Shown piece after piece: positions 12,381-64,000 of a stretch of 64,000 nt of DNA. Positions within the stretch are counted from its first letter, which is position 1. Every line of letters begins with the position of its first letter. A model generated the notes under the pieces. The model had not been told where the DNA came from. It made no database searches and saw nothing but the letters and a program-made list of their open reading frames with translations. The stretch covers positions 16,977,095 to 17,041,094 of the forward strand of contig NC_037260.1 in NCBI RefSeq assembly GCF_000002425.4, read 5' to 3'. The stretch is from Physcomitrium patens. Taxonomy: Eukaryota > Streptophyta > Bryopsida > Funariales > Funariaceae. A program made the position numbers and the translations under genes.

Positions 12381-14136
12381 TCAGAACCTAAGCTTGGAGA
12401 AAAACCACCTGTTCTTGCCAGTCTTGAACCTCTCTTCCAAAACAGCTTTGGCCGCCTGTTGATATCAATCGCGAATCTCTTCGTATCAGATTACCAAAAC
12501 TCTATTTATGATATATAACACATGAATTCAATTTACCCATTTCTGAACGAAACAACAGCGACTAGTTCTAACTGCATTTCTACACATCATAACAAATACC
12601 CAACAACAAGATCAGTAATCGATATTAATACAAGTTCTCAGCGGCTGTAAAACTGAGGACTACTAACTAATGGTTGAGACCCCGAAACGTTAGCAAGTGA
12701 TACCTTTCTGGATTCTACACGACTAGCTGTAGACTCCAACTTGTCGGCAGTTACGGTGTTCTTCAAATCCACGTCCAAGGAATACCTGCCACAATTCACA
12801 TTTGTAAGTCCCGTCAAATATTGCTACTTTAAGTCCAAACGCGCTAGACGTAATCGAAGTCCCCTATATATGTCATATTATCGACAAACACCAAGCAGGA
12901 AGATTCTGACCATATGCCTCCTGATATAAGAGAAAACGTAAGAAGTACGACTGAATGCTTGCCCTACTGCCGAGTTGTACCTTTTAAGGGACAGGAATCA
13001 CAATTCTTTGCATGAGCACAAGAGATTATAATCGAAGAATGTATGAAATGCTACTATCGGATTGCGCCCAGCAATACGGATGTTGCCAGCGAAACTTCCA
13101 GGATTCTTTTGGCCTCCCATGAATCAAACGAACAAATAACGTGAGGCTGGGATTTAACAGAGGCGCAACTGTGAAGTAGACTGCAGTGATTTCGAATGCT
13201 GCATCGACTACCAGTTCTAACACCGTATCAAGTCTTACACGACCCCCTGAGCGAGATTAAGTGAACGAACAATGTGAGTACCTGGTGGGCATTATGTGGT
13301 TGTAGTTGACCACTTTAGTAAAAGCTTTGAGTCTTGAGCGCTTGGCAATGGTCTTCTGTGAAGCCTTCTTGATAACCTGCATGCGTGAATAGAAGAGAGA
13401 CTTAGAAGAAAGCACGAGTTCGTGCACCTTAACTCCCCTAGCCCAATCATCCTTTAAATACTACGGGTGCGGAGTTTGTTCCAGAGCAGCACAAGCTCCG
13501 TGAGGAAACACCGAAAAAAATTAATAAATAAATATGTAAATAAACAAAAAAATCACAAGAGTGAAATGCTTCGTTACAAACCGCCTATTTAAGCCAAAGC
13601 TAAAATCAAACTTAAGACCCTACAGCTTCACATGCAATGCATTCTACTCTAAGCGCCTACACCCAGGATGTAAAACCCTCGGAATCTGCTGTAAACAAAC
13701 TTTACAGAAAAAATAAACTAATATCCACACAAATTTCTGAAGAGGCGATACAAACCTTCTCGTCCAGAACTCTCCCCTAACTAACCCGGAAAAACATGTA
13801 AAGCTAAACCAAAATAACAAATCGACTACTGTTCCCAGTAACAAACGATACTTGAAACTAAGCATCCCATCAGGCTAACTCACAACATAACCCTTCAAAG
13901 GCACGTAGACCTAAAAATCAGAAGCTGTTATAAAAAGCCTGGCGATGCGGGTAACAAACGGGGGGCGCGAAATTACAAACCTTGCGAGGGTACTTGGCGA
14001 TGCCGCAGACGATAGCGTGGCCGTAAGGACGCTCCTTGGTGCCATCGTCGAAGTTCTTCACGATGACAGCCTTGCGGCCGGCATAGCGGCCTTGCAAGAG
14101 CACGACCACTTTGTTGGGCTTCAGGAACTTCACCAT
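12381..14136 (-). CDS. RPL27: Cytosolic 60S ribosomal protein eL27
   Basis: Four coding exons on the minus strand: 14136-13981, 13376-13282, 12785-12704 and 12455-12381, with introns of 604, 496 and 248 bases, all GT-AG and in frame. The product is 135 residues, the normal length of eL27. It starts MVKFLKPNK, followed by the KOW-type segment [22 protein letters not shown], then [26 protein letters not shown] and the family's C-terminus [15 protein letters not shown]. eL27 is a structural component of the large cytosolic ribosomal subunit. The ATG at 14136 gives the conserved family start. Just upstream (14161-14200 on the other strand) there is a pyrimidine-rich tract ending in TAG/CAG, which suggests a 5' UTR intron as is common in plant ribosomal protein genes. 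Confidence 0.96.
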
Positions 14137-17005: not shown

Positions 17006-17357
17006 TTATTCCCTCTTTTGGGGACAAGTTCCACAAGAAGTGATAATTACATATTGACAAAGTCTAAGATACAACAAATTATATTTGCTAAATATTCTGA
17101 TCTTTGTTTCCTTTGAAGGCAGTTGATAGGTCCTCTTAGCTTTCAATAATATTTCATTCTAAGGTAGAAAGACAACCTTCTTATTTGATTGTTATTGAGG
17201 TCTTCATAACTTCTTTTAAATAAAATATTTATAATACTATTAAGAATCATTTCTACATCTAATAAAATCACCAAATATTAAAAAAGACTCCAAATAGATA
17301 TCAAATGCATTGTCAAAAAGAAAGAGTTTGCTTTAGGAAAATACAAAGTTTTTGGTT

Positions 17358-28870: not shown

Positions 28871-29291
28871 TGTCATGGACACAGAATACAGACTTGATAT
28901 CTACCAAGAAGTTTAAGAAGAACTGGCAAGAACTAGATTAATCAGATGAATACAAGAACAACACCAGAGAGGTGAGCTAGAGCTCTAAGAGATGTGTTGT
29001 CGAGACTGAAGAATTCTTCAGCCTCGATTCCAATATATACTCCTATTTAGGAAGCTTCTCAAGCAACTTCTACCAACTAGGAAGCTTCTAGAAGGTTCTA
29101 GAGACTTGCTTCTAGAAGGTTCTAGAAACTTATCTCTAGAAGGTTCTAAGGACTATGTCCCTAATATCTTCTATCAACTAAGAAGCTTCTAGAAGATTCC
29201 AGAGACTTGCTTCTAGAAGGTTCTAGAAGCTTGTCTCTAGAAGGTTCTAGAAACTTGTCTCTAGAAGGTTCTAAGGACTATGTTCCTAACA
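28871..29291 (-). repeat. 3' LTR of O
   Basis: 421 bp, pairs with 42303-42723. More than half its length is made of heat-shock-type GAA/TTC units. Confidence 0.92.
29032..29271 (-). promoter_or_regulatory. TATA box plus array of 23 heat-shock units in the O 3' LTR
   Basis: On the minus strand a TATATATT at about 29040-29032 is preceded by an array (29271-29081) of GAA and TTC trimers. The trimers form seven groups of 4, 4, 2, 4, 4, 3 and 2 units, each spaced exactly 5 bases as required for heat-shock factor binding; examples are 29081-29098 and 29110-29127. The array begins about 40 bases upstream of the TATA box. The site definition is established; heat inducibility here is an inference. 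Confidence 0.72.
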
Positions 29292-29341: not shown

Positions 29342-29790
29342 TCAGTACCAATGCAAGAAAATGAAGATCTGTCGCATAACGTCTGCTATGAACTCTAACT
29401 GTTGTTCACGAGGTAAGTGGTTCATCGACCCTTGAAGCCAACGGTAGTGGCCCACTCCTTCAACTTCTGACCAAGCATGAACTTCCGTGTCTTTATTGTG
29501 AAATTGTCCTGCAAATAAGCCTTCTGGTTGACCATTAAGCAGGCTCGGACTCAAATACAATCATCAGTGATCGATTACTTGGTATCCTCCGTCGTCGTCA
29601 TGGTACAGGTGGTTCTTCATCTTGGGGTCACCTTCGTGAGTTAGTTGGTTGAGATAATCTAACTGGCATAGTATCTATCTCTTGGCTATCCATATCAAAA
29701 GACCAAACTATGGTTGCTGAAAAAATTCTATTTTATCTTGGAGAAAATAACTACATCAACTACGAATTTTAGTGGTGCTCTCCTCCTTTC
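29342..29790 (-). other. Third-ORF remnant of O, downstream of pol
   Basis: Its C-terminal part (an open frame at 29560-29342) shares the block GHYRWL-G and the following amphipathic stretch with the third ORF of I at 36140-36562, roughly 40% identical by eye over about 60 residues. It lies after the chromodomain and before the 3' LTR, the same place as in I. Function unknown. Confidence 0.65.
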
Positions 29791-31099
29791 TTATATTCTT
29801 GGATGAGTAAGCTTCAGAAGGAAGCTATCGTCGAATCGGCTTAGGTTTATGAGGATGTTGTTGATGAAACTCCTATACCTTTTGCGGCGCATTGGCGAGA
29901 TTTTCAGCTGGCTCCCACGTTCGCTCATTAATGTCGTAGCCGCACCAATGAACAAGATACTCCAACTTGCCCCACCTTCGCCGTGAATCCAGTACCTTTT
30001 CAACCTCGTATTCCTCATGGTTCTCGATCTCAATACTAGGTGGCGAACATTGCACTCTTCCAAGAAAAGTCGACTCTCGATAAGGCTCCAACAGAGAAAC
30101 ATGAAAGACTGGATGTACCTTCATAGAAGCCATTAATTCCAGACGGTACGCCACTGGATTGATTTGCTTCTGGATGATAAATGGTCCCAATCTTCGATAG
30201 TCCAACTTATCACATGGTCGCTTGGTCTTGATATTCCGTCGAAGAAGCCATGCTTTATCTCCAATTTTTAAAGTAGGTGCTTGATTCCGAAATCTATCTG
30301 CACACGCCTTGTAGGATTCTTGAGCGGATTGTAATTGAAGCTTCAACGTATTTTGAAGCTCTGATAGTTGTTTCGTAAATCCTTCAGCTGCTGGATTGTT
30401 ATTGGTTGATGGATTCAATAAATCAAGCTTCGGATGATACCCATAGTTGGAAAAGAATGGTGTGTATTGAGTCGATGCATGGAGGGTGTTGTTATATGCA
30501 AACTCAGCTAGCGGCAGATATGTCGTCCAATCGTCTTACTGATAGTTGATGCTGCATCGTAAGTATTGTTCCAAGATTTGGTTCACCTGTTCCGTTTGGC
30601 CGTCAGTTTGAAGATGAAAAGCTGAAGAAAGCTTGATATCCACCTTCAGTATCTCAAAGAGAGATTTCCAAAACTTTGATACAAACTGGGTTCCTCGATC
30701 TGATATGATATCATCTGGTAGTCCATGATAACGATACACATTATCGAGAAAGAGCCTTGCTGTGACTTCACTGGACGATGTCTTCTTGCAAGGGACAAAG
30801 TGTCACGGACATACATATAATTACCTATATGAATAGATAAAAGTATGTAAAAGTAGGTTAATTGTATAATATCTTCTAGAAAAGCTTCTTAGAAGCTTCA
30901 TAGACGCTGCTTTGACTTTATAGGAGTCTATAGTTGACTTTTAGGTTAGAAACTTGGTCAACAAGTTAGCCATGTGCCACGCATGTTGGAAGCTTAAAGA
31001 ACAAGCTAACTACGTGGTCCATCCATAGAAAACTTGCCTTGCAAGCAAAGGCATGTGGCCTAGAAAGTCAACATATACTGGAGGTCTTATAGAACATCG

Positions 31100-31130
31100 C
31101 CACGTGGCTTCTAGTTAGATAGTATATATA
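31100..31130 (+). promoter_or_regulatory. G-box and TATA box of the I promoter
   Basis: CCACGTGG at 31100-31107 contains the CACGTG core bound by plant bZIP and bHLH factors. TATATATAG starts at 31123. Transcription would be expected to start about 30 bases on, near 31154, which is where the self-primer sequence starts. Confidence 0.6.
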
Positions 31131-31153
31131 GAGGCAAGAGTGAAGCCCTCTTC

Positions 31154-31164
31154 ACTCTTGTCAA
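31154..31164 (+). promoter_or_regulatory. Self-primer sequence at the predicted 5' end of I RNA
   Basis: The 11 bases actcttgtcaa begin 31 bases after the first T of the TATA box, i.e. at the expected RNA start. They are exactly complementary to 31333-31343, just past the LTR. In the yeast element Tf1 and its relatives the first 11 bases of the RNA anneal to such a site and prime reverse transcription. Confidence 0.75.
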
Positions 31165-31332
31165 CTCCTTTCTTGCTTCTAGTCTAGTTTCAAGGGTCTC
31201 TAGTTTTCTTGTATTTTGGCAATAGCCATTCCAGTTTCTTTCTTAATATACATATTTCTATTTTGTCCTATTTCTTTTTGAGAAAAGTCTCACTTACTCT
31301 TTAGCTTTCATCGAGTTCTTGTCCTTGACAGA

Positions 31333-31343
31333 TTGACAAGAGT
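31333..31343 (+). promoter_or_regulatory. Primer-binding site of I (self-primed type)
   Basis: ttgacaagagt lies 2 bases downstream of the 5' LTR and is the perfect complement of 31154-31164. A tRNA-Met-type motif (atatcagagc) is also present, but further down at 31353-31362, too far from the LTR to be a normal primer site. Confidence 0.75.
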
Positions 31344-31542
31344 ACACTTACAATATCAGAGCTTTGTCTTTTCTTGATTAAGAGTGGATTACCCCTTTTT
31401 CTTGATAAGACATAAGCGCATTAGAAGTTGCGGATTACCCTCTTTTAAACTGATATTGTTCTTAGTATTTTCTTTGTTATCAATTCCTCTCTTCTATTTG
31501 TTTTGAGCGTTATTAGACATCTTCTCTTTTCTAAGTGCTACT

Positions 31543-32550
31543 ATGGCAGAGCTTGTTGAAATAAAGAGTGCAATGGCACAGATGCAAGAACAATTGAGGG
31601 AGTTAATGCTTGCGATGCATCAACTCAATTTACCACCACAAGGAGCAACAAGAATGGTAGGAAGTGAAGATATAGAGATGATTGGGGCTGCTTCAACATC
31701 TGCACCAAACCATGTCCCTTCTCCCAGAATGGAACACCCTTCGAGTGTTAGAGAACCGAGAGTTGCCTTGCCCGAGAAGTTTGATGGTACCAGATCCAAG
31801 TTTCGAGGATTCATCAATCAGGTCCAACTAGTGATTGAACTTCAACCCCAGAGCTATCCAACTCCAGGGTCACAAGTAAGATTCATTGGTACACTTCTTT
31901 CAGGTTCAGCATTGTCATGGTTTTCATCTTTTCTTGAACGACGAGATCCAATATTGGATAATCTGGAGGCTTTTTTGGCGGAGTTTCGATCCATGTTTGG
32001 AGAACATGATGCAATTCGTGTTGCAACCAACAAGATCCGTATTTTGCGACAAGGCAATCGATCAGTAACATTATATGCTTCGCAATTTCGACAACTTGCA
32101 ACTGATATCAAGTGGGATGATGCCGCAATTGTGAGTCAATTTCTCTACGGATTACAATATGAGGTAAAGAAATTGATGCTTAATTTACCTGATCCTCAAA
32201 CATTGAGTCAAGCAATTGACTTTGCTGTGAAGTGCGACAATCGACTTTTTAAATTTCGATCCGAGAGTCGCATAAGTGGGCCTCAACGTTACTACAATTC
32301 AATGGCAATACCGACGTCTCCTCAACACATACCTTCAGAAGTAGAGGATATGCAAATTGATGCGGTACGTTTCAAACCTCTTACTGAGCAAGAAAAGTCT
32401 CGTCGTCGACAAGAAGGATTGTGCTTATATTGTGGAGAACCTAAGCACACTGCTCAACATTGTCCAAAGAAGCGACGTAACTACAAAATGAGGAGTACGG
32501 CTGTCAAAGAAGACAGTATGTCGGAAAACGAGTACGTCCAGCTACAATAG
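31543..32550 (+). CDS. Gag protein of element I
   Basis: 335 residues. The N-terminus (about 1-30) is a heptad-like helical stretch rich in Met, Leu, Glu and Gln. The central part carries the retrotransposon Gag core, with LSGSALSWF around residue 120 and a FGEHDA block. A CCHC zinc knuckle (C-x2-C-x4-H-x4-C) lies at about residues 294-307. Gag packages the RNA into virus-like particles. The ATG at 31543 is the first after the primer site with a matching start in the copy at 63591. The pol frame follows within a few bases in a different frame; Ty3/gypsy elements commonly handle this by recoding. Confidence 0.94.
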   Translation: MAELVEIKSAMAQMQEQLRELMLAMHQLNLPPQGATRMVGSEDIEMIGAASTSAPNHVPSPRMEHPSSVREPRVALPEKFDGTRSKFRGFINQVQLVIELQPQSYPTPGSQVRFIGTLLSGSALSWFSSFLERRDPILDNLEAFLAEFRSMFGEHDAIRVATNKIRILRQGNRSVTLYASQFRQLATDIKWDDAAIVSQFLYGLQYEVKKLMLNLPDPQTLSQAIDFAVKCDNRLFKFRSESRISGPQRYYNSMAIPTSPQHIPSEVEDMQIDAVRFKPLTEQEKSRRRQEGLCLYCGEPKHTAQHCPKKRRNYKMRSTAVKEDSMSENEYVQLQ

Positions 32551-32555
32551 GGACC

Positions 32556-35500
32556 GTGCGGCTGGAATCTTGTACAACTTCTAATAAAGGTCCTATCCTC
32601 TCCTCAGAACCATCTCCTTGTTTTATAATAGATGTGCGTTTAGGACCTAATAATTACAAAGCCTCTTCCTTGGTAGATTCAGGAGCCTCATCTTGTTTTT
32701 TAGATGAAGAATTTGCTAGATGTCATAGAATATCATTAATACAAAAAACTAAACCTGTACACGTAGAAGTCATAGATGGTCGTCCGTTGTCTTCTGGAGA
32801 TGTAACTCACGAAATACTTCCTGTAGATGTAGTAATAAATGGTCATAGTAGTTGCGTAATTTTTAATATAATTAGATCTCCCTCTAATCCAGTAATTTTA
32901 GGCTTATCATGGTTAGAAAAGTATAATCCTCGAATAGATTGGATTTCTCGTAAACTTGATTTTCCTCGGAGCATTAGTAACAGTTCTATTAATCAAGTAA
33001 AAAACCATGAGTCCAGTATAGTAAAACCCGCACTTATAGGTGCAAAAGCATTTATACACGCAGCAAAAGAAGGATCAACTTTTGCTATTTATGCTGCACC
33101 TATTTCTGAAAGCGTAAAGACTTCAAGTGGCATTCCAAGTCAATATCAAGATTATCAAGACATTTTTGAGAAAAAGAATGCAGATATTCTTCCTGAGCAT
33201 CGCCCATACGATTGTTCAATCGATCTCAAGGAAGGAACTCAGCCACCATTTGGACCAATTTACAGTTTATCGCAAGATGAGTTGGCTGAACTCAAGACAT
33301 ATATTGACGAGAATTTAGCGAAGAATTTCATACGCCATTCAAAATCTCCAGCAGGAGCTCCAATTTTATTCGTAAAGAAAAAAGATGGATCTTTACGAAT
33401 GTGTGTTGACTATCGAGGACTCAACAAGATCACAATCAAGAACAGGTATCCATTACCTTTGATATCAGGACTCCTTGACCAGTTAAATCAAGCTAAGATC
33501 TATACAAAAATAGATCTAAGAGGAGCATATAATCTAGTACGGATCAAAGAAGGAGATGAATGGAAGACTGCGTTTCGAACCAGGTACGGGCATTTTGAAT
33601 ATAATGTCATGCCTTTTGGACTCACGAATGCACCAGCTGCTTTTCAACATCTCATGAATGATGTATTTCGTGAATTCTTAGACAATTTTGTCGTCTACTA
33701 CCTAGACGATATCCTGATTTATTCTAAGAATGTTGAAGAACATGAAATACATGTTCGTCAAGTATTACAAAAACTCAGAGATGCAGGATTGTACGCCAAG
33801 ATGGAAAAGTGTGTATTTCACACTACTCAAGTTGACTTTTTAGGATACATCATTTCAAATGATGGTCTTATGATGGATTCTAAGAAAGTCCAAACAATCA
33901 TGGATTGGAAGATTCCAAAGACTGTAAGAGATGTTCAATGTTTCTTGGGATTTGCCAATTACTATCGGATCTTCATCAAAGACTTCTCACGAGTTGCAGC
34001 TCCACTTACACGCTTGACTAGTAAAGATAAATTCCAATGGAATCAACAAGCGGAAGCAGCATTTGAAGCCTTGAAGACATCGTTTGTCTCTGCACCAGTC
34101 TTATATCGTGTTGACTTTTCCAAGGCATTTTTTATGGAAACAGACGCATCGGATTTTGCCTTGGGTGCAGTTTTATCACAAATGGGAACAGATGACAAAC
34201 TTCATCCGATAGCTTTTCATTCAAGAAAATTCTCAGCAGCCGAGATCAATTATGAGATCCACGATAAAGAACTTCTTGCAATCGTGGATTCTTTTCAAGA
34301 ATGGCGTCATTATCTAAAAGGTGCTTCTAGTCCAGTCATTGTGTATACAGATCACAAGAACCTCGAGTATTTCATGTCAGCACGCGTGTTGAATCGTCGT
34401 CAAGCTCGTTGGAGTATGTCTTTGTCAAGATTCGACTTCATTATCACTTATCGACCAGGAAAACAACAAGGTTTGTCCGATGCCCTGTCTAGACGTTCTT
34501 ATTTTGCACCAAAAGAAGGAGATGCAGCTTTTGAGCAACAAAGAACGGTCCTCTTGAAACCGGAGCAATTTCATCTCCGAGCAGTGAAATCAACATTGAC
34601 TGTTGATTCAACTTTTCTCAAGCAAAACCAGTCCAGTATGTCCTCAGACCCTCTTGTTCATGATATCGAGAATAATTCTTCCAAGTCTCATGATTCTTCT
34701 CAGTTCGAGTTCAAGAATAATCTATTATATTTTGAAGGACGCCTATATGTTCCAGAAGGAAAAGCACGTTTGCGTGTTCTTCAAGCACGTCATGACTTTC
34801 CAGCAGCAGGGCACTTTGGATATAATAAGACTTTGGAACTCATATCAAGAGATTTTTGGTGGCCACAAATGTGGAAGTCAGTCAAAGACTTTGTACAATC
34901 ATGTGATATTTGTTCAAGATCAAAAATTCCTCGACATCGACCTTACGGACTTCTTCAGCCATTACCTATACCAGAACAACCATGGTCTTCTGTTTCTATG
35001 GATTTCATCACAGATCTTCCAAACTCAAGATCTTATGATTCTATATTTGTGATAGTAGATCGTTTCACCAAGATGGCACATTTTATGCCATGTACAAAAT
35101 CTATCACAGGTGAAGAAACAGCTAAGCTTTTCATTGATAATATCTATCGCTATCATGGATTGCCTAAAGATATCATATCGGATAGGGGAACTCAATTTGT
35201 GTCGAGATTCTGGAGGACTCTTTTCAAGATTTTAAAAGTGGACATAAAGCTATCTTCAGCTTTCCATCCTCAAACTGATGGACAAACAGAGCGCGTAAAC
35301 CAAGTCTTGGAACAGTATTTAAGGTGTACCATCAACTACCAACAAGATGATTGGACAAACCTTCTGCCATTGGCAGAGTTTGCTTATAATAATACGGTAC
35401 ATTCCTCCACGCAACAAACACCTTTCTTTGCCAATTATGGCTATCATCCACGACTTGATACTTTTGATTTTTCAAAAGTTGATAATCCTGCAGCAGAAGA

Positions 35501-36044
35501 TATGGCAAATCGGTTGTCAGAGTTACATACAATAATGAAGGCGCAGTTGAAGAAAGCTCAAGAACGACAAAAGATAAATGTAGATGTATATCGTAAAGAG
35601 CAACCACAACTCAACGTGGGTGATAAGGTATGGCTACTTCATCGCAATATCAAGACCACTCGACCTTGTGACAAATTGGACTATCGTAGGCTTGGCCCCT
35701 TTTCTGTTTCTGAACAGATCAACCCAGTTGCATATCGGTTACATCTACCAGAGTCAATGAAGATCCATCCTGTATTCCACGTGTCTCTTCTTGAACCATA
35801 TAAGACAGTGGATATACAAGGAAGAAGACAAATGCCACCGCCTCCTATAGAAGTAGATAATAATGAAGAATTTGAGGTGGAAGAGATATTAGACTCAAGG
35901 CGGCGCCGAAATAAGCTGGAATATCTTGTTCATTGGTGCGGATATGATATTAGTGAGCGCACATGGGAGCCATCCAGGAATCTAGCAAATGCATCAGCTA
36001 AAGTCAAAGTTTTTCATCAACGACATCCATCAAAACCAAGATGA
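32556..36044 (+). CDS. Pol polyprotein of element I with C-terminal chromodomain
   Basis: An open frame of 1,162 codons. Order of parts: aspartic protease with DSGAS at residue 41; reverse transcriptase with the YLDD active-site box near 381; RNase H beginning with TDASDFALGAVL; integrase zinc-binding H-H-C-C region at about 745-790 (HDFPAAGHFG and CDIC); integrase core with [15 protein letters not shown] and the HPQTDGQTERVN box at about 815-920; GPF/Y module (RRLGPF); chromodomain at about 1106-1160 with [15 protein letters not shown]. Chromodomains of this class direct integration to chromatin carrying specific histone marks. How translation starts is not visible; the frame has no obvious own ATG at its beginning. 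Confidence 0.95.
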   Translation: MRLESCTTSNKGPILSSEPSPCFIIDVRLGPNNYKASSLVDSGASSCFLDEEFARCHRISLIQKTKPVHVEVIDGRPLSSGDVTHEILPVDVVINGHSSCVIFNIIRSPSNPVILGLSWLEKYNPRIDWISRKLDFPRSISNSSINQVKNHESSIVKPALIGAKAFIHAAKEGSTFAIYAAPISESVKTSSGIPSQYQDYQDIFEKKNADILPEHRPYDCSIDLKEGTQPPFGPIYSLSQDELAELKTYIDENLAKNFIRHSKSPAGAPILFVKKKDGSLRMCVDYRGLNKITIKNRYPLPLISGLLDQLNQAKIYTKIDLRGAYNLVRIKEGDEWKTAFRTRYGHFEYNVMPFGLTNAPAAFQHLMNDVFREFLDNFVVYYLDDILIYSKNVEEHEIHVRQVLQKLRDAGLYAKMEKCVFHTTQVDFLGYIISNDGLMMDSKKVQTIMDWKIPKTVRDVQCFLGFANYYRIFIKDFSRVAAPLTRLTSKDKFQWNQQAEAAFEALKTSFVSAPVLYRVDFSKAFFMETDASDFALGAVLSQMGTDDKLHPIAFHSRKFSAAEINYEIHDKELLAIVDSFQEWRHYLKGASSPVIVYTDHKNLEYFMSARVLNRRQARWSMSLSRFDFIITYRPGKQQGLSDALSRRSYFAPKEGDAAFEQQRTVLLKPEQFHLRAVKSTLTVDSTFLKQNQSSMSSDPLVHDIENNSSKSHDSSQFEFKNNLLYFEGRLYVPEGKARLRVLQARHDFPAAGHFGYNKTLELISRDFWWPQMWKSVKDFVQSCDICSRSKIPRHRPYGLLQPLPIPEQPWSSVSMDFITDLPNSRSYDSIFVIVDRFTKMAHFMPCTKSITGEETAKLFIDNIYRYHGLPKDIISDRGTQFVSRFWRTLFKILKVDIKLSSAFHPQTDGQTERVNQVLEQYLRCTINYQQDDWTNLLPLAEFAYNNTVHSSTQQTPFFANYGYHPRLDTFDFSKVDNPAAEDMANRLSELHTIMKAQLKKAQERQKINVDVYRKEQPQLNVGDKVWLLHRNIKTTRPCDKLDYRRLGPFSVSEQINPVAYRLHLPESMKIHPVFHVSLLEPYKTVDIQGRRQMPPPPIEVDNNEEFEVEEILDSRRRRNKLEYLVHWCGYDISERTWEPSRNLANASAKVKVFHQRHPSKPR

Positions 36045-36139
36045 AAACCTCTCTTATAAAAGAGACAAGATTGAGGCAAGATAACATTCAATTTCCTATC
36101 CTTGTTTGTAACTTCTTTGCATTTTGTGACGCTAATTAG

Positions 36140-36562
36140 ATGGAGAGCCAACAACCAGCGGATTCAACTCAAGAACCTTCGTTTGCTGACTTACCGGATG
36201 AGACATTGCGATTGTCACAACCTTCAAGACGACGCAACCGAGATGAAGACCCTCAAGAACGACATGTTCTTCCTCGAATAGATGGTGAAATACAACGCGT
36301 TTGGTATCACGACCTTGGAAGAGATTCTCGATGTTTGGTGATATTATTGGAGATAGGAACGACTACTGATGGTGTTTCAAATGTATTATTTGAAGGAAGT
36401 TATGAAGGCCTCAACAGTGATCAAATAACAGGGTGGTCTTCTCGCCCTGGAATGGGACACTATCGATGGCTAAGAGGACCCATCAACTATCTTCGAAGAG
36501 AACAAAGATCAGAGTATGTAGCAAATACAATTCGCCGCATATTAGATTTTCTCAATATATAA
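36140..36562 (+). CDS. Third ORF of element I, 140 residues, unknown function
   Basis: It lies between pol and the polypurine tract, separated from pol by about 95 bases, and starts with its own ATG. The N-terminal 45 residues are polar, rich in Ser, Pro, Arg and Asp, and look disordered. The rest is more ordered, with RVWYHDLGRD, a hydrophobic VILLEIG stretch, GMGHYRWLRGPINYL and an amphipathic C-terminal helix ending IRRILDFLNI. I recognise no domain. The C-terminal half is also present in element O (29342-29560) and in traces in L0, always in the same place, so it is probably a real accessory protein. It could also be a short envelope-like or RNA-handling protein, but there is no membrane segment. 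Confidence 0.75.
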   Translation: MESQQPADSTQEPSFADLPDETLRLSQPSRRRNRDEDPQERHVLPRIDGEIQRVWYHDLGRDSRCLVILLEIGTTTDGVSNVLFEGSYEGLNSDQITGWSSRPGMGHYRWLRGPINYLRREQRSEYVANTIRRILDFLNI

Positions 36563-36603
36563 TCACCGCTCCTCGTGGAACTCGTCCCTAGAAGGGGGGG
36601 TAA

Positions 36604-37133
36604 TGTCACGGACATACATATAATTACCTATATGAATAGATAAAAGTATGTAAAAGTAGGTTAATTGTGTAATATCTTCTAGAAAAGCTTCTTAGAAGCT
36701 TCATAGACGCTGCTTTGACTTTATAGGAGTCTATAGTTGACTTTTAGGTTAGAAACTTGGTCAACAAGTTAGCCATGTGCCACGCATGTTGGAAGCTTAA
36801 AGAACAAGCTAACTACGTGGTCCATCCATAGAAAACTTGCCTTGCAAGCAAAGGCATGTGGCCTAGAAAGTCAACATATACTGGAGGTCTTATAGAACAT
36901 CGCCACGTGGCTTCTAGTTAGATAGTATATATAGAGGCAAGAGTGAAGCCCTCTTCACTCTTGTCAACTCCTTTCTTGCTTCTAGTCTAGTTTCAAGGGT
37001 CTCTAGTTTTCTTGTATTTTGACAATAGCCATTCCAGTTTCTTTCTTAATATACATATTTCTATTTTGTCCTATTTCTTTTTGAGAAAAGTCTCACTTAC
37101 TCTTTAGCTTTCATCGAGTTCTTGTCCTTGACA
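36604..37133 (+). repeat. 3' LTR of I
   Basis: 530 bp, nearly identical to the 5' LTR. A purine tract (agaaggggggg, 36590-36600) sits 3 bases before it and is the likely plus-strand primer. Confidence 0.96.
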
Positions 37134-39634
37134 CAAAGTGCGCCATTTTTGTAAGCCGATCTACCACAACAAAGATGCTGTCAAATGAGTTCGATGATGG
37201 CAGGTCCGTGATGAAGTCCATGGAAATTGAAGACTATGGTCGCTGTGGAATCGGCAATGGCTGTAGGAGTCCATAAGGGCGATGCCGAGGATTCTTAGAT
37301 CTTGAACAGATGTCACAGGAGAGGACAAAATCTTTCACATCCTTCCACATTTTGGGCCACCAAAAATCTCGAGAAATAAGCTCCAAGGTCTTGTTGAATC
37401 CAAAATGTCCCGCAGCTGGAAAATCGTGGCGAGATTGAAGAACTCAGAGTTGTGCTGGTCCTTTTGGGATATATAACCGCTCCTCAAAGTATAAAAGATC
37501 TCCCTCCACCTTGAACTTGTTGTCATTGGCACGCTGCTTAATATCAATGGCTACTGAATCTTCAATGGTCACGGCATGTACCTGATTCAAGAAGTCAGCA
37601 TCAATTGGTACAATAGTAGCGCAAAGCTGAAATTGCTCTAGCTTCAACAATGTCATATATTGTTGATCAAACGTTGCTTCTCCAGCCTTTGGTACAAGAT
37701 ACGATCTCCTCGATAAAGCATCAGATAGTCCTTATTGCTTTCTAGGTCGATAAGTGATAACAAAATCGAACCTAGATAGCAACATACTCCACCGAGCTTG
37801 ACGTCGATTTAGAACTCGAGCCGACATGAAATACTCCAAATTCTTGTGATCTGTGTATACGATCACTGGATGTGCAGCTCCTTCAAGAAAGTGACGCCAT
37901 TCTTGGAAAGAATCCACTATAGCAAGAAGTTCCTTATCGTAGATCTCATAATTGATTTCAGCAGTAGAGAACTTTCGAAAATAGAATGCAACCAGATAGA
38001 GCTTCTTGTCTTCTCCCATTTGTGAAAGTACAGCTCTTAAAGCAAAATCCGAAGCATCAATTTCTAAATAAAAGGCCTTTGTAAAGTCTGGATGTACTAA
38101 GATTGGAGCCGTAGTAAATGCGGTCTTCAAGTCTTGAAACGCCTTCTCTGCTAGAGGTCCTCATTCCAACTTATCCTTGCATGTTAACCGAGTAAGAGGA
38201 GCAGCAATTTGAGAGTAATTCTTGATAAAGATCCGATAGAAGTTAGCAAAACTAAGAAAGCATTGTACGTCTCTAACCGTCTTTGGAACCTCCCAGGACA
38301 CGATTGCTTCCACTTTCTTGGGGTCCATCTTCAAGCCTTCCGTAGTCGCAACAAACTCCAAAAACTCCATTTCTAGTTGGTGAAATAAACACTTCTCCAA
38401 CTTGGCATATAGTCCTCGTTCGCGTAGTTTCTCCAAGACCAAACGAACGTATTTTTCATGCTCTTCCTCATTTTTGGAGAATATCAAAATATCATCCAAA
38501 TAGATGACAACAAAATCATCAAGGTGCTCTCGAAAAATGTCATTCATCATATGTTGAAAGACCGCTGGAGCATTGATAAGACCAAAGGGCATGACATTAT
38601 ACTCAAAATGGCCATACCTTGTACGGAACGATGTCTTCCACTCATCTCCTTCCTTGATTCGTACGAGGTTGTAAGCTCCCTTTAGATCAATTTTTGTAAA
38701 GATCCTTGTATGTCCAAGTTGTTCTAAGAGACCAGAAATCAAGGGTAACGGATAATGATTCTTCTTTGTTACCTTGTTGAGGCCTCGATAGTCCATGCAC
38801 ATCCACAATGAGCCATCTTTCTTCTTCACAAATAAGATGGGTGCTCCAGCTGACGATTTTGAATAGCGGATGAAGTTCTTGGCTAGATTCTCGTCGATGT
38901 ACTTCCGCAATTCCGCCAACTCTGTCTGCGATAGATTGTAGATTGGGCCAAAAGGCAGTTGTGCTCCTTCCTGTTAGTCTATGGTGCAATCATATGGTCT
39001 GTGGTCCGGTAGCATGTCGGTATTTTTCTTTTGAAACACGTCTTTAAAATCCTTATATTGCTCCGGTATACTTGCTGTCGAGATCTTCTCCTTGGTAGTT
39101 GGAGTCGCATAAATGACAAACGGTGTGCCTTCCTTGGACGATCTTATAAATGCTCTTGCTCCAATAAATAAGGAATTCTCTATTTGGGGTTTTCTACTAG
39201 GCTTGCTCTTGGGTGGTTTTGTGAGAAAGGTCATCTTCCACAACTTCCAATCTATGGATGGGTTATGCTTTTCCAACTAGGAAAGACCAAGAATAACAAG
39301 ATTTGATGGGGTTTTAATAATATTGAAAATAATATGAATACTATGGCCCTTAAACATCACTTCTATAGGTTTTGATTCATGGGTGACACTACCGGACAAT
39401 AAAGATCGTCCATCTATGACCTCAACGTGAACAGGTTTGGATTTTTGTACTAAAGGGATCTTATGATGCTTCGCAAATTCTTTGTCTAAGAAACAAGCAG
39501 ATGCTCTTGAATCTAATAATGCTAAGGTTCTCAGTTTCTGAGGGCCAATAAGCAAAGGAATTGTAAAACAAAGGGCAGGTTGAGCGGAAAGAAAGGAACC
39601 TGGTTGTTGTTGCGATATTTTAGTGTCCAGCCGC

Positions 39635-42289: not shown

Positions 42290-42300
42290 AGTCTCGACAA
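42290..42300 (-). promoter_or_regulatory. Primer-binding site of O (self-primed type)
   Basis: On the minus strand TTGTCGAGACT begins 2 bases past the 5' LTR and is the perfect complement of the predicted RNA 5' end at 42439-42429. A tRNA-Met-like ATATCAGAGC follows at 42276-42267, again displaced. Confidence 0.72.
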
Positions 42301-42302
42301 AC

Positions 42303-42723
42303 TGTTATGGACACAGAATACAGACTTGATATCTACCAAGAAGTTCAAGAAGAACTGGCAAGAACTAGATTAATCAAATGAATACAAGAACAACACCAGA
42401 GAGGTGAGCTAGAGCTCTAAGAGATGTGTTGTCGAGACTGAAGAACTCTTCAACCTCGATTCCAATATATACTCCTATTTAGGAAGCTTCTCAAGCAACT
42501 TCTACCAACTAGGAAGCTTCTAAAAGATTCCAGAGACTTGCTTCTAGAAGGTTCTAGAAACTTATCTCTAAAAGGTTCTAAGGACTATGTCTCTAACATC
42601 TTCTATCAACTAAGAAGCTTCTAGAAGATTCCAGAGACTTGCTTCTAGAAGGTTCTAGAAGCTTGTCTCTAGAAGGTTCTAGAAACTTGTCTCTAGAAGG
42701 TTCTAAGGACTATGTCCCTAACA
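42303..42723 (-). repeat. 5' LTR of O
   Basis: 421 bp. On the minus strand a TATATATT starts at 42471, with the heat-shock array upstream (about 42703-42512). It pairs with 28871-29291. Confidence 0.92.
42429..42439 (-). promoter_or_regulatory. Self-primer sequence at the predicted 5' end of O RNA
   Basis: On the minus strand the 11 bases AGTCTCGACAA start 32 bases after the first T of the TATA box. They are exactly complementary to the site at 42290-42300 just past the LTR. The layout is the same as in I, with a different sequence. Confidence 0.72.
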
Positions 42724-51024: not shown

Positions 51025-52335
51025 ATAATAGATCCTATTGTAATTAAAAAAACTTATTTTTTAACATATCATCTTCTTTGATAACTATATTTTTTATTGT
51101 ATGATTATATAAATTCTTTGGATAATTGAGTAGTGTGATTAGATTTTCCATAATATAAGCACAATCCTTCTTGATGACGTTGAGTCTTTTCTTACTCAGT
51201 AAGAGTTTTAAAACATATTGTATCAATTTGTATAGGTTCCAACCTTGATTAATAAGCTTCTGAAAACTTAGAAGTTGTTGCTTTGACTTGACTTGTACTC
51301 CTTCAACCAAACCTTTGTCCTTGACGTCTTTCAAGAATTGATTATTGTATATAATATTTTAAAAAATAAATTATTTCAACGAATCTACTTTCAAAATTAT
51401 TAACAATAAATTTTTGATATTGTCTTTTAATTTATATCAAAATTGATTGATAAAGACGATGTCATTTCAATCTATATCACAAGTAAGATTTTGGAATTTT
51501 CCAATATATATGGTGGTTGAATGTAATCCTTGTTGTAAAGAAAGAGATTGATTTTTGCTATTTTTTCTTGATTTCTTTCTCTAATTATAGTCATAAAGAC
51601 TTTTAAGAATAAATTTAGATCATAAAAGAGTTGTGAATTCTTTTCTAACAAAGATATAAACCAAGAGAAAGTACTCTTGGATAGAAGTGCATTTATAAAT
51701 CTAACTTGAGTAAATCTATGAAGATATTAGAAAGAATATAAATTTAGATAGTATTTCATTTATTATAAAAATCCTTAAAAATTTGATCTGATTTCATCAA
51801 ACTTCTTCAACATACTTATTCTTATTTCTTTTATACTTGTAGAAACAAGACTTCTTGCATTTAATTAAAAATTTGATCTACTTGCTTCTTTCAATTGTAC
51901 AACTTCTTAGTATAAAATTTGAACCTTATTATTGACTTCTTCCAAAGGTGTAGGAATAATATCTCCATGGTTCATGTTAGAAATACGTAAGATTTTGATT
52001 CTAAGAATATTGACAAGCTCATAAAGATCTTCAATAGTTACAAATTTATTTTTATTTTTATTAAAAATAAAATCTATAATTTAGTCTTCTATAGATAATT
52101 CAAATAAACTTACAAGTTAAATTAAAAGATGATAATTTCTAACTTCTAATATCAAATAAAAATTTCTACAAAAAGTGGTAGCTTACTTTTTTAAGGTAAA
52201 AATCACTGTTAAAAAACTAAATTATTAATTTAAAGGTGGATACTCTACAACTTTTAAAATAAAATAATAGAAGTGAGATAATTTATTTATTTTTAAAAAC
52301 AAAATAAGAATAATGAATCAACACTCTTCTCAAAT

Positions 52336-62834: not shown

Positions 62835-64000
62835 TATCATGAACATATACATGTAAATGAATAATTACCTATATGATTTAGATAATAGTAGGTAAAAGTA
62901 GATTAATTCCATAATACTTTCTATAGAAGCTTTCTAGAAGCTTCATAGATGCTACTTTGACTTTATAGGTGTCTTTAATTAACTTTTAGGTTAGAGAAAT
63001 GGTCAATAAGTTGTCCATGTATCACATATGTTGGTAGCTTGAAGAACAAGCTAACTATGTGGCCCATACGTAGAAAACTTGCCTTGTAAGCTAAGGCATG
63101 TGTCTTGCAAAGTCAACACATATTAGAGGTTCTATAGAACATCGCCATGTAGCTCCTAATTAGATTGTATATATAGAAGCAAGAATGAATCCTTCTTCAC
63201 TCTTGTCAAATCCTTTCTTGCTTCTAGTCTAGATTTTAGAGTCTCTAATTTCTTTGTCATTTGGCAATAGCCATTCTAGTTTTTTTTTAATATACATACA
63301 ACTTTATTTCTATTTTTTCACTTTTCTTTTAACACAGATTTTCCAAGTTTATGCATCTTCTTTCAATTCATGTCATTGATAGATTGACAAGAGTATATTT
63401 ACAATATTAGAGCTTTATATTTTCTTAATTAAGAATGAATTATTATTTTTTCTTGATAAGACATAAGCATATTAGAAGTTGCGGATTATCCTCTTCTGAA
63501 CTAATATTGTTCTTAGTATCTTCTTTGTTCTCAAGTTCCCTCTTTTACTTGTCTTGAGCAATATTATACATTTATTTTGTAAGTATTATCATGATAGAGC
63601 TTCTTGAAATGAAGAGTGTAATGGCACAAATGCAAGAGCAATTGAGAGAGTTAATGCTTGCGATGCACCAATTCAGTTTACTACCACAAGGAGAAACAAG
63701 AATGGCAAAAAGTAAAGATAAAGATATGATTGGAGTTGCTTCAATATCTGCATTCAATCATGTCCTTTCTCCTATGGTTGAACATCCTTCCGGTACTAGA
63801 GAACCAAGAGTTGTTTTGCCTAAGAAGTTTCATGGCATAAGAACTAAGTTTTGAGGATTTATCAATCAAGTAAAATTTGTGATTGAACTTTAACCCCAAA
63901 GCTATCCAACTCCAAGATCACAAGTTAGATTCATTAGTATACTTCTTTCAAGTTCAGCATTATCATAGTTTTCATCTTTTCTTGAATGATAAGATCCAAT
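62835..64000 (+). mobile_element. Second I-family element, 5' part only (runs off the window)
   Basis: The LTR is about 62835-63381 (547 bp), followed by the same leader as I and the start of gag at 63591 (start of protein MIELLEMKSVMAQMQEQLREL, very close to the I Gag). The TATA box starts at 63168, a self-primer sequence actcttgtcaa lies at 63199-63209, and its exact complement is at 63384-63394, 2 bases past the LTR. A three-unit heat-shock motif lies at 62932-62944. It is diverged from I and moderately decayed, with several breaks, so clearly older than I. Confidence 0.85.

Follow-up and report, generated by a model that had tools for sequence, protein, structure and literature searches.

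Sequence layout and co-variation point to Tf1-type self-priming in a high-copy chromodomain gypsy lineage of a probable moss genome

In the fission-yeast retrotransposon Tf1, reverse transcription relies on an 11-nt primer that is released by a cut between nucleotides 11 and 12 of the RNA (PMC7175516, PMC10085805). Elements of the Tcn1 clade are kin of the fungal and vertebrate Tf1/sushi elements, and for most of those in moss and clubmoss, which have no tRNA sites, self-priming has been predicted (Neumann 2019, PMC6317226); in SM-Tcn1 of Selaginella, no site for either tRNA priming or self-priming was found (PMC2864245). Among plant copia elements, the TAR lineage (Houba, Osr-1) is also predicted to be self-primed (PMC6317226). 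With 5092 complete copies, the chromodomain family RLG1 is the most abundant element of Physcomitrium patens, and its transcription has been seen in protonema (PMC7466625). Self-priming in this clade is already predicted, and its kind is known. A preliminary description of the locus considered here had called a young plant element with a Tf1-like layout notable; the layout is upheld below, but its novelty is reduced by the prediction for moss and clubmoss Tcn1 elements already in print (PMC6317226).

The locus lies in a window of 64 000 nt, the whole stretch of DNA analysed, in which nested insertions occupy 16503-52823: a degenerate element III encloses element II, and element II encloses element I (Table 1). 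Element I is a young chromovirus whose LTRs, 530 bp each, differ at two positions. Comparison of the two LTRs and the flanking CAAAG duplication define where its 5' LTR begins and ends, and these bounds in turn give the 2-nt spacer before the self-primer binding site (PBS). Its gag translation contains a CX2CX4HX4C stretch, read from the ORF translation, and its chromodomain carries the aromatic cage of the Tcn1 clade: F, W, and Y align with Y/F, W, and Y of CDY-type chromodomains, the first cage residue being F (reference residues Y24, W45, and Y48 of HP1). The extra ORF between pol and the 3' LTR gave no Pfam match at E 0.01, and its relatives immediately precede the 3' LTRs of element II (29351-29518, minus strand; 42% identity over 57 residues) and element III (17050-17274, minus strand; 52% over 75 residues).

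Table 1. Coordinates of elements I, II, and III, of the partial relative copy2, and of their priming features in the window
Feature	Position	Strand	Remarks
Element I	30801-37133	+	chromodomain gypsy element, nested inside element II
Target-site duplication CAAAG, left copy	30796-30800	.	flanks element I
Target-site duplication CAAAG, right copy	37134-37138	.	flanks element I
Element I 5' LTR, TGTCAC...TGACA	30801-31330	+	530 bp; 99.6% vs 3' LTR
TATA box TATATAT	31123-31129	+	31 nt upstream of 31154
Hairpin U3 arm GGCAAGAGTGAAG	31133-31145	+	element I; 13 bp, -19.7 kcal/mol, z -5.8
Hairpin second arm	31150-31162	+	element I; last 4 nt of U3 and primer bases 1-9 (31154-31162)
Self-primer ACTCTTGTCAA	31154-31164	+	predicted first 11 nt of RNA (R1-R11); perfect complement of PBS
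Spacer GA, LTR end to PBS	31331-31332	+	2 nt
Self-primer binding site TTGACAAGAGT	31333-31343	+	perfect complement of primer
Leader stem arm 1 ACAATATCAG	31350-31359	+	overlaps tRNA-iMet-like 9/12 match at 31351-31362
Leader stem arm 2 CTGATATTGT	31450-31459	+	pairs with arm 1 over 10 bp; compensated changes in copy2
gag ORF	31543-32550	+	335 aa; Retrotrans_gag, Ty3_capsid
pol ORF	32556-36044	+	1162 aa; protease, RT, RNase H, integrase, Tf2-1-type SH3, chromodomain; -1 frame relative to gag
Extra 3' ORF	36140-36562	+	140 aa; between pol and 3' LTR; relatives in elements II, III
Polypurine tract AGAAGGGGGGG	36590-36600	+	element I
Element I 3' LTR	36604-37133	+	hairpin arms 36936-36948 and 36953-36965; second primer copy 36957-36967
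Element II 5' LTR	42303-42723	-	target-site duplication CTTAG
Element II 3' LTR	28871-29291	-	LTR pair alike at 411/424 aligned positions
Element II self-primer AGTCTCGACAA	42429-42439	-	perfect pairing with own PBS
Element II PBS TTGTCGAGACT	42290-42300	-	2 nt beyond LTR
Element III self-primer ACTCTTATCAA	52501-52511	-	degenerate element; 1 mismatch vs own PBS
Element III PBS TTGAGAAGAGT	52323-52333	-	degenerate element; 1 mismatch vs own primer
copy2 self-primer	63199-63209	+	11-mer identical to element I
copy2 PBS	63384-63394	+	11-mer identical to element I

Compared with the Tcn1 clade and RLG1 as described in the available text (PMC6317226, PMC2864245, PMC7466625), element I shares the aromatic-cage chromodomain, gag and pol as two ORFs, a 5-bp duplication, predicted self-priming, many copies, and the lack of a tRNA site abutting the LTR. 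With S. pombe Tf1 it shares an LTR that ends in CA and an RNA whose first 11 nt would be complementary to the PBS beside the 5' LTR, the RNA start being placed from the TATA box (PMC7175516, PMC10085805). It departs from Tf1, as far as those sources describe it, in having gag and pol as two overlapping ORFs, the latter in the -1 frame, where Tf1 has a single ORF, and in the CX2CX4HX4C stretch of gag, which is not present in the fission-yeast elements. The TAR elements Houba and Osr-1 resemble it in being plant elements with predicted self-priming, but belong to the copia superfamily (PMC6317226).

Both positional claims of the preliminary description hold: the 11-mer begins exactly 31 nt after the start of the TATA box, and its perfect complement lies 2 nt beyond the LTR. 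The pair is the only exact complementary run of at least 9 nt between 30801-31332 and 31329-31400. We scanned the window for a TATA followed after 27-37 nt by an 11-mer with at least four G/C whose exact complement lies 80-420 nt further on. Three places were returned (31154/31333, 63199/63384, and, on the minus strand, 42439/42300), all of them 5' ends of related elements, and 20 shuffled windows gave two matches in total (mean 0.1). When the LTR was shuffled downstream of the TATA box, the match was regained in 0 of 20 000 trials for element I and in 2 of 20 000 for element II. Looser matches are abundant in AT-rich flanks, as would be expected if the complementarity were a chance product of AT-rich DNA; an unfiltered scan, which dropped the G/C requirement and tolerated one mismatch, returned AT-rich matches by the hundred and was set aside. 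Against chance stand the shuffles of element I, the three places per window against 0.1 expected, and the co-variation in relatives, which refutes it. Chance is excluded as the source of the primer/PBS match, and its remaining probability is negligible.

Co-variation is visible within the window and beyond it. The primer and PBS of element II differ in their letters from those of element I and retain full pairing; copy2, a partial, older relative of element I, starts near 62846. Searching bacterial and archaeal assemblies with an alignment of pol yielded 19 contigs (L001-L019), presumably of eukaryote origin, and scans of viral contigs found no relatives. We assume that L001-L004, which sit in a Trichormus bin, may derive from the fern Azolla. 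In L001, L003, L004, and L005 a TATA is followed after 31-33 nt by a primer and later by TGACA, 2 nt, and a perfect complement, the fully paired primers being AAGGCGAACAA (L001 and L003), ACTCTTGATCAA (L004), and CAGTCTCGACAA (L005). L018 shows a 14-nt run, AACAACAGGAGTAG, once the contig ends are joined, with a 3-nt spacer and no TATA box, and a 12-nt run is present in L100, a further family of the element II group from the genome that contains the window. The distance from TATA to primer is 31-33 nt in seven elements, and the site lies 2 nt beyond the final CA of the LTR in elements I and II, L001, L003, L004, L005, and L100. When five distinct 11-nt primers were compared, that of element I included and those of L004 and L018 cut from longer runs, each matched its own site at 11/11 positions and the sites of the others at 2-8/11, with more than one pair type at 10 of the 11 positions.

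The layout was not found in L002, L008, L010, and L017, whose contigs begin too near pol to contain the LTR, nor in L006, L007, L009, L011-L016, and L019, whose LTRs were not located and which thus give no clear negative. The search returned no such layout in L101, where damage at primer bases 1-4 can be seen by eye. In three other chromovirus contigs (L102-L104) no TATA lay 27-37 nt ahead of a complementary run, the LTR not being located in L102 and L104; L103 has a tRNA-iMet-type site.

Copies of the elements were read in the window's own genome (470.4 Mb, 101 contigs). The element I LTR gave 2647 first-look candidates, and the 40 places listed were all 99-100% alike. Conservation of the two 11-mers in other copies of family I, proposed earlier as a check, was borne out in 20/20 copies read of the 40 listed (element I counted), which say little because they are so alike. 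In family II, both 11-mers were kept exactly in 24 of 30 copies read from 44 listed matches (element II counted), five had one mismatch, and one had two. The older set comprised 30 of 42 listed matches, namely copy2 itself and 29 copies at 87-88% to it; a gap-free PBS was present in 24 of the 30, with 0, 1, 2, and 3 mismatches in 4, 10, 7, and 3 copies, respectively. Old copies decay without retaining the pairing, as expected of dead copies under neutral decay, and the evidence for selection comes from the comparison between families. Compensated changes in the old copies L055, L056, L065, and L066 were left uncounted and may be chance products of transition-type decay.

Three further observations concern these sequences. 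Two family-I LTR-plus-leader matches on the same strand, G000:C16:13061270 and 13066753, are 5.5 kb apart and may represent a tandem element with a common LTR. Both LTRs of element II contain repeats of the TTCTAGAAGCTTCTAGAA kind, which we take to resemble heat-shock elements. RLG2 of P. patens has been reported to be heat-induced (PMC7466625). Elsewhere in the window, 13037-13153 (minus strand) matches the snoRNA family snoR83 at 47.8 bits.

A reverse transcriptase tree of 45 rows places elements I and II in a group with 16 metagenome or bin sequences (99/99), the nearest outside group being six frog rows (85/82). Both are split (100/100) from six angiosperm and three Closterium rows plus L019, and one named fungus on a long branch falls, with bin contigs, more loosely beside them. 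By this tree their reverse transcriptases belong with those of fungal and vertebrate elements, not with plant chromoviruses. Within the gypsy elements, element I thus falls on the Tf1/sushi side and most likely belongs to the moss Tcn1 clade. Genome size, chromodomain, and copy number suggest that it may be RLG1. The self-priming reading of the preliminary description is well supported by the exact layout, by the co-varying letters in relatives, and by this position beside frog elements and away from angiosperm and Closterium chromoviruses.

Folding predictions agree with pairing of the two 11-mers in the leader. Primer and PBS pair in the minimum-energy fold of six of seven leaders (10-11 of 11 nt), the exception being element II, and their ensemble probability is 0.87-0.95 in seven of eight leaders, with 0.00 in L018. 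An upstream duplex beside the PBS, counted without a shuffle control, has 8-10 bp in I, L001, L003, and L004 and 6-7 bp in II, L005, and copy2; in the former four it may correspond to one flanking duplex of the Tf1 'pretzel', the downstream duplex being unclear. Pairing by itself is no proof of priming, and the 11-mers might pair for leader folding, packaging, or RNA circularisation while priming takes another route. The placement of the two sequences, 31-33 nt after the TATA and 2 nt beyond the final CA of the LTR, as in Tf1-type elements in the accounts available, argues against this reading, and we give it very little credence.

The claim that no tRNA-type site abuts the LTR, where tRNA-primed gypsy elements have theirs, stands in that only the self-site is found there, but it needs qualification: at 31351-31362, 20 nt beyond the LTR end, CAATATCAGAGC agrees at 9/12 positions with a string that we take to be the tRNA-iMet complement. 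Similar matches occur in element II (AGATATCAGAGC, 10/12) and L100 (TGGTATCAGAGC, 12/12), beginning 7-11 nt beyond the 11-nt PBS in the three elements (7 nt in I). The letters recur in 18 of 20 family-I and 24 of 30 family-II copies read, and matches of at least 9/12 arose in 198 of 20 000 shuffled 45-mers; such a match would not easily appear by chance. Priming of element I by tRNA-iMet at this site, with the 11-mer pairing merely shaping the leader, would fit these counts. In element I, however, the three letters opposite the terminal CCA of the tRNA mismatch, so that the tRNA could hardly be extended; the site is 20 nt from the LTR end against 2 nt for the self-site; and the best match is 6/12 in L001, L003, L004, and L005.

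The conservation of these letters can also be accounted for by a leader stem. They pair with CTGATAT about 90 nt further on (10 bp in I, 8 bp in L100, and 6 bp in II), and the 10-bp stem of copy2 has compensated changes (ACAATATTAG with CTAATATTGT). We favour this explanation, in which the tRNA-like letters would form one side of a leader stem that co-varies; they could also be what is left of an ancestral tRNA site, and priming by tRNA-iMet appears improbable. The module at 31350-31459, closed by the co-varying stem CAATATCAG/CTGATATTG or, by eye, CAATATTGG/CCAATATTG, is also present in II, copy2, L100, and L005 and has repeated GAGTGGATTACCCC and TTAGAGGTTGCGGA...CCTCTAA motifs. There are apparently two modules in II and L100 and one in I and L005; as a guess, the module is possibly a packaging or dimerisation signal.

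The primer is also part of a hairpin that spans the U3/R boundary. The U3 arm of this hairpin, 12-13 nt long and situated close to the end of U3, pairs with the final bases of U3 and, next to them, with primer bases 1-9 (I, L001, L003, and L005) or 1-8 (II). The z value is -7.9 in L001, -5.6 in L003, and -6.6 in L005, and in element II -3.1 (5' LTR) and -6.1 (3' LTR); the hairpin is weak in copy2 (z -2.7) and absent from L004 (z +1.4). Without z values, that of L100 folds at -22.5 and L018 has a 7-bp version. The hairpin co-varies with the primer in several families, L004 excepted, and U3 is paired to seven or more of primer bases 1-9 in 30/30 family-II and 28/30 copy2-like copies. G-U pairs are retained at R8 in I and at R3 in II and L005, which points to action as RNA rather than DNA. 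A DNA cruciform or a transcription-factor palindrome at the start site is unlikely, as the letters differ among families and the G-U pairs are kept.

With an RNA start at 31154, the U3 arm would be missing at the 5' end of the RNA and would therefore occur only in the 3' LTR, where the predicted pairing probability of the hairpin is 0.92 (I) and 0.81 (II). In two-strand folds with a PBS piece but no U3, each of the eight elements shows predicted primer:PBS pairing of 0.91-0.98. With U3 included it drops from 0.94-0.98 to 0.00 in I and L100, 0.02 in L005, and 0.10 in L001, and stands at 0.40 in II, 0.85 in L003, and 0.91 in L004; in copy2 it is 0.05, through other pairing and not the U3 arm. 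Predicted blocking is strong in four of the eight elements and partial or absent in the rest. When a leader of 110 nt was folded with the PBS left off, the 5' primer was itself mostly paired (mean unpaired fraction 0.17-0.50, in I barely above the 3'-end value). This, the missing hairpin of L004, the slight or partial blocking in L003 and II, and the different pairing in copy2 speak against a simple masking of the 3' primer copy.

We tentatively suggest, at slightly less than even odds, that these folds reflect a second co-varying RNA device, which would lock the primer copy of the 3' LTR, and that in read-through RNAs begun upstream of the LTR, so that only a true 5' end primes. Alternatively, the hairpin could be a barrier to read-through RNAs, or strand transfer could use it as a landing site. 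We found no description of it in the literature searched for a hairpin or inverted repeat, including the available text on the Tcn1 clade and RLG1; the original Tf1 literature was only partly covered, and the hairpin may be known.

Building on the layout, the predicted pairing, the co-variation among families, and the position in the tree, we consider that element I very probably primes its own reverse transcription. Its RNA would start at or beside 31154 and loop round so that the first 11 nt anneal to the PBS at 31333-31343. After a cut by the element's own RNase H between nucleotides 11 and 12, the released 11-mer would prime minus-strand DNA, 2 nt beyond the end of the LTR. More tentatively, pairing with the end of U3 may keep the primer copy at the 3' end (36957) in the hairpin and leave the PBS to the 5' copy. 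If functional, the hairpin bears on how an RNA with two primer copies ensures that the 5' one is used. Co-variation, and not one site alone, shows the Tf1 layout in a gypsy lineage with many copies, whose genome is probably that of the model moss, and the same layout recurs in relatives from other sources.
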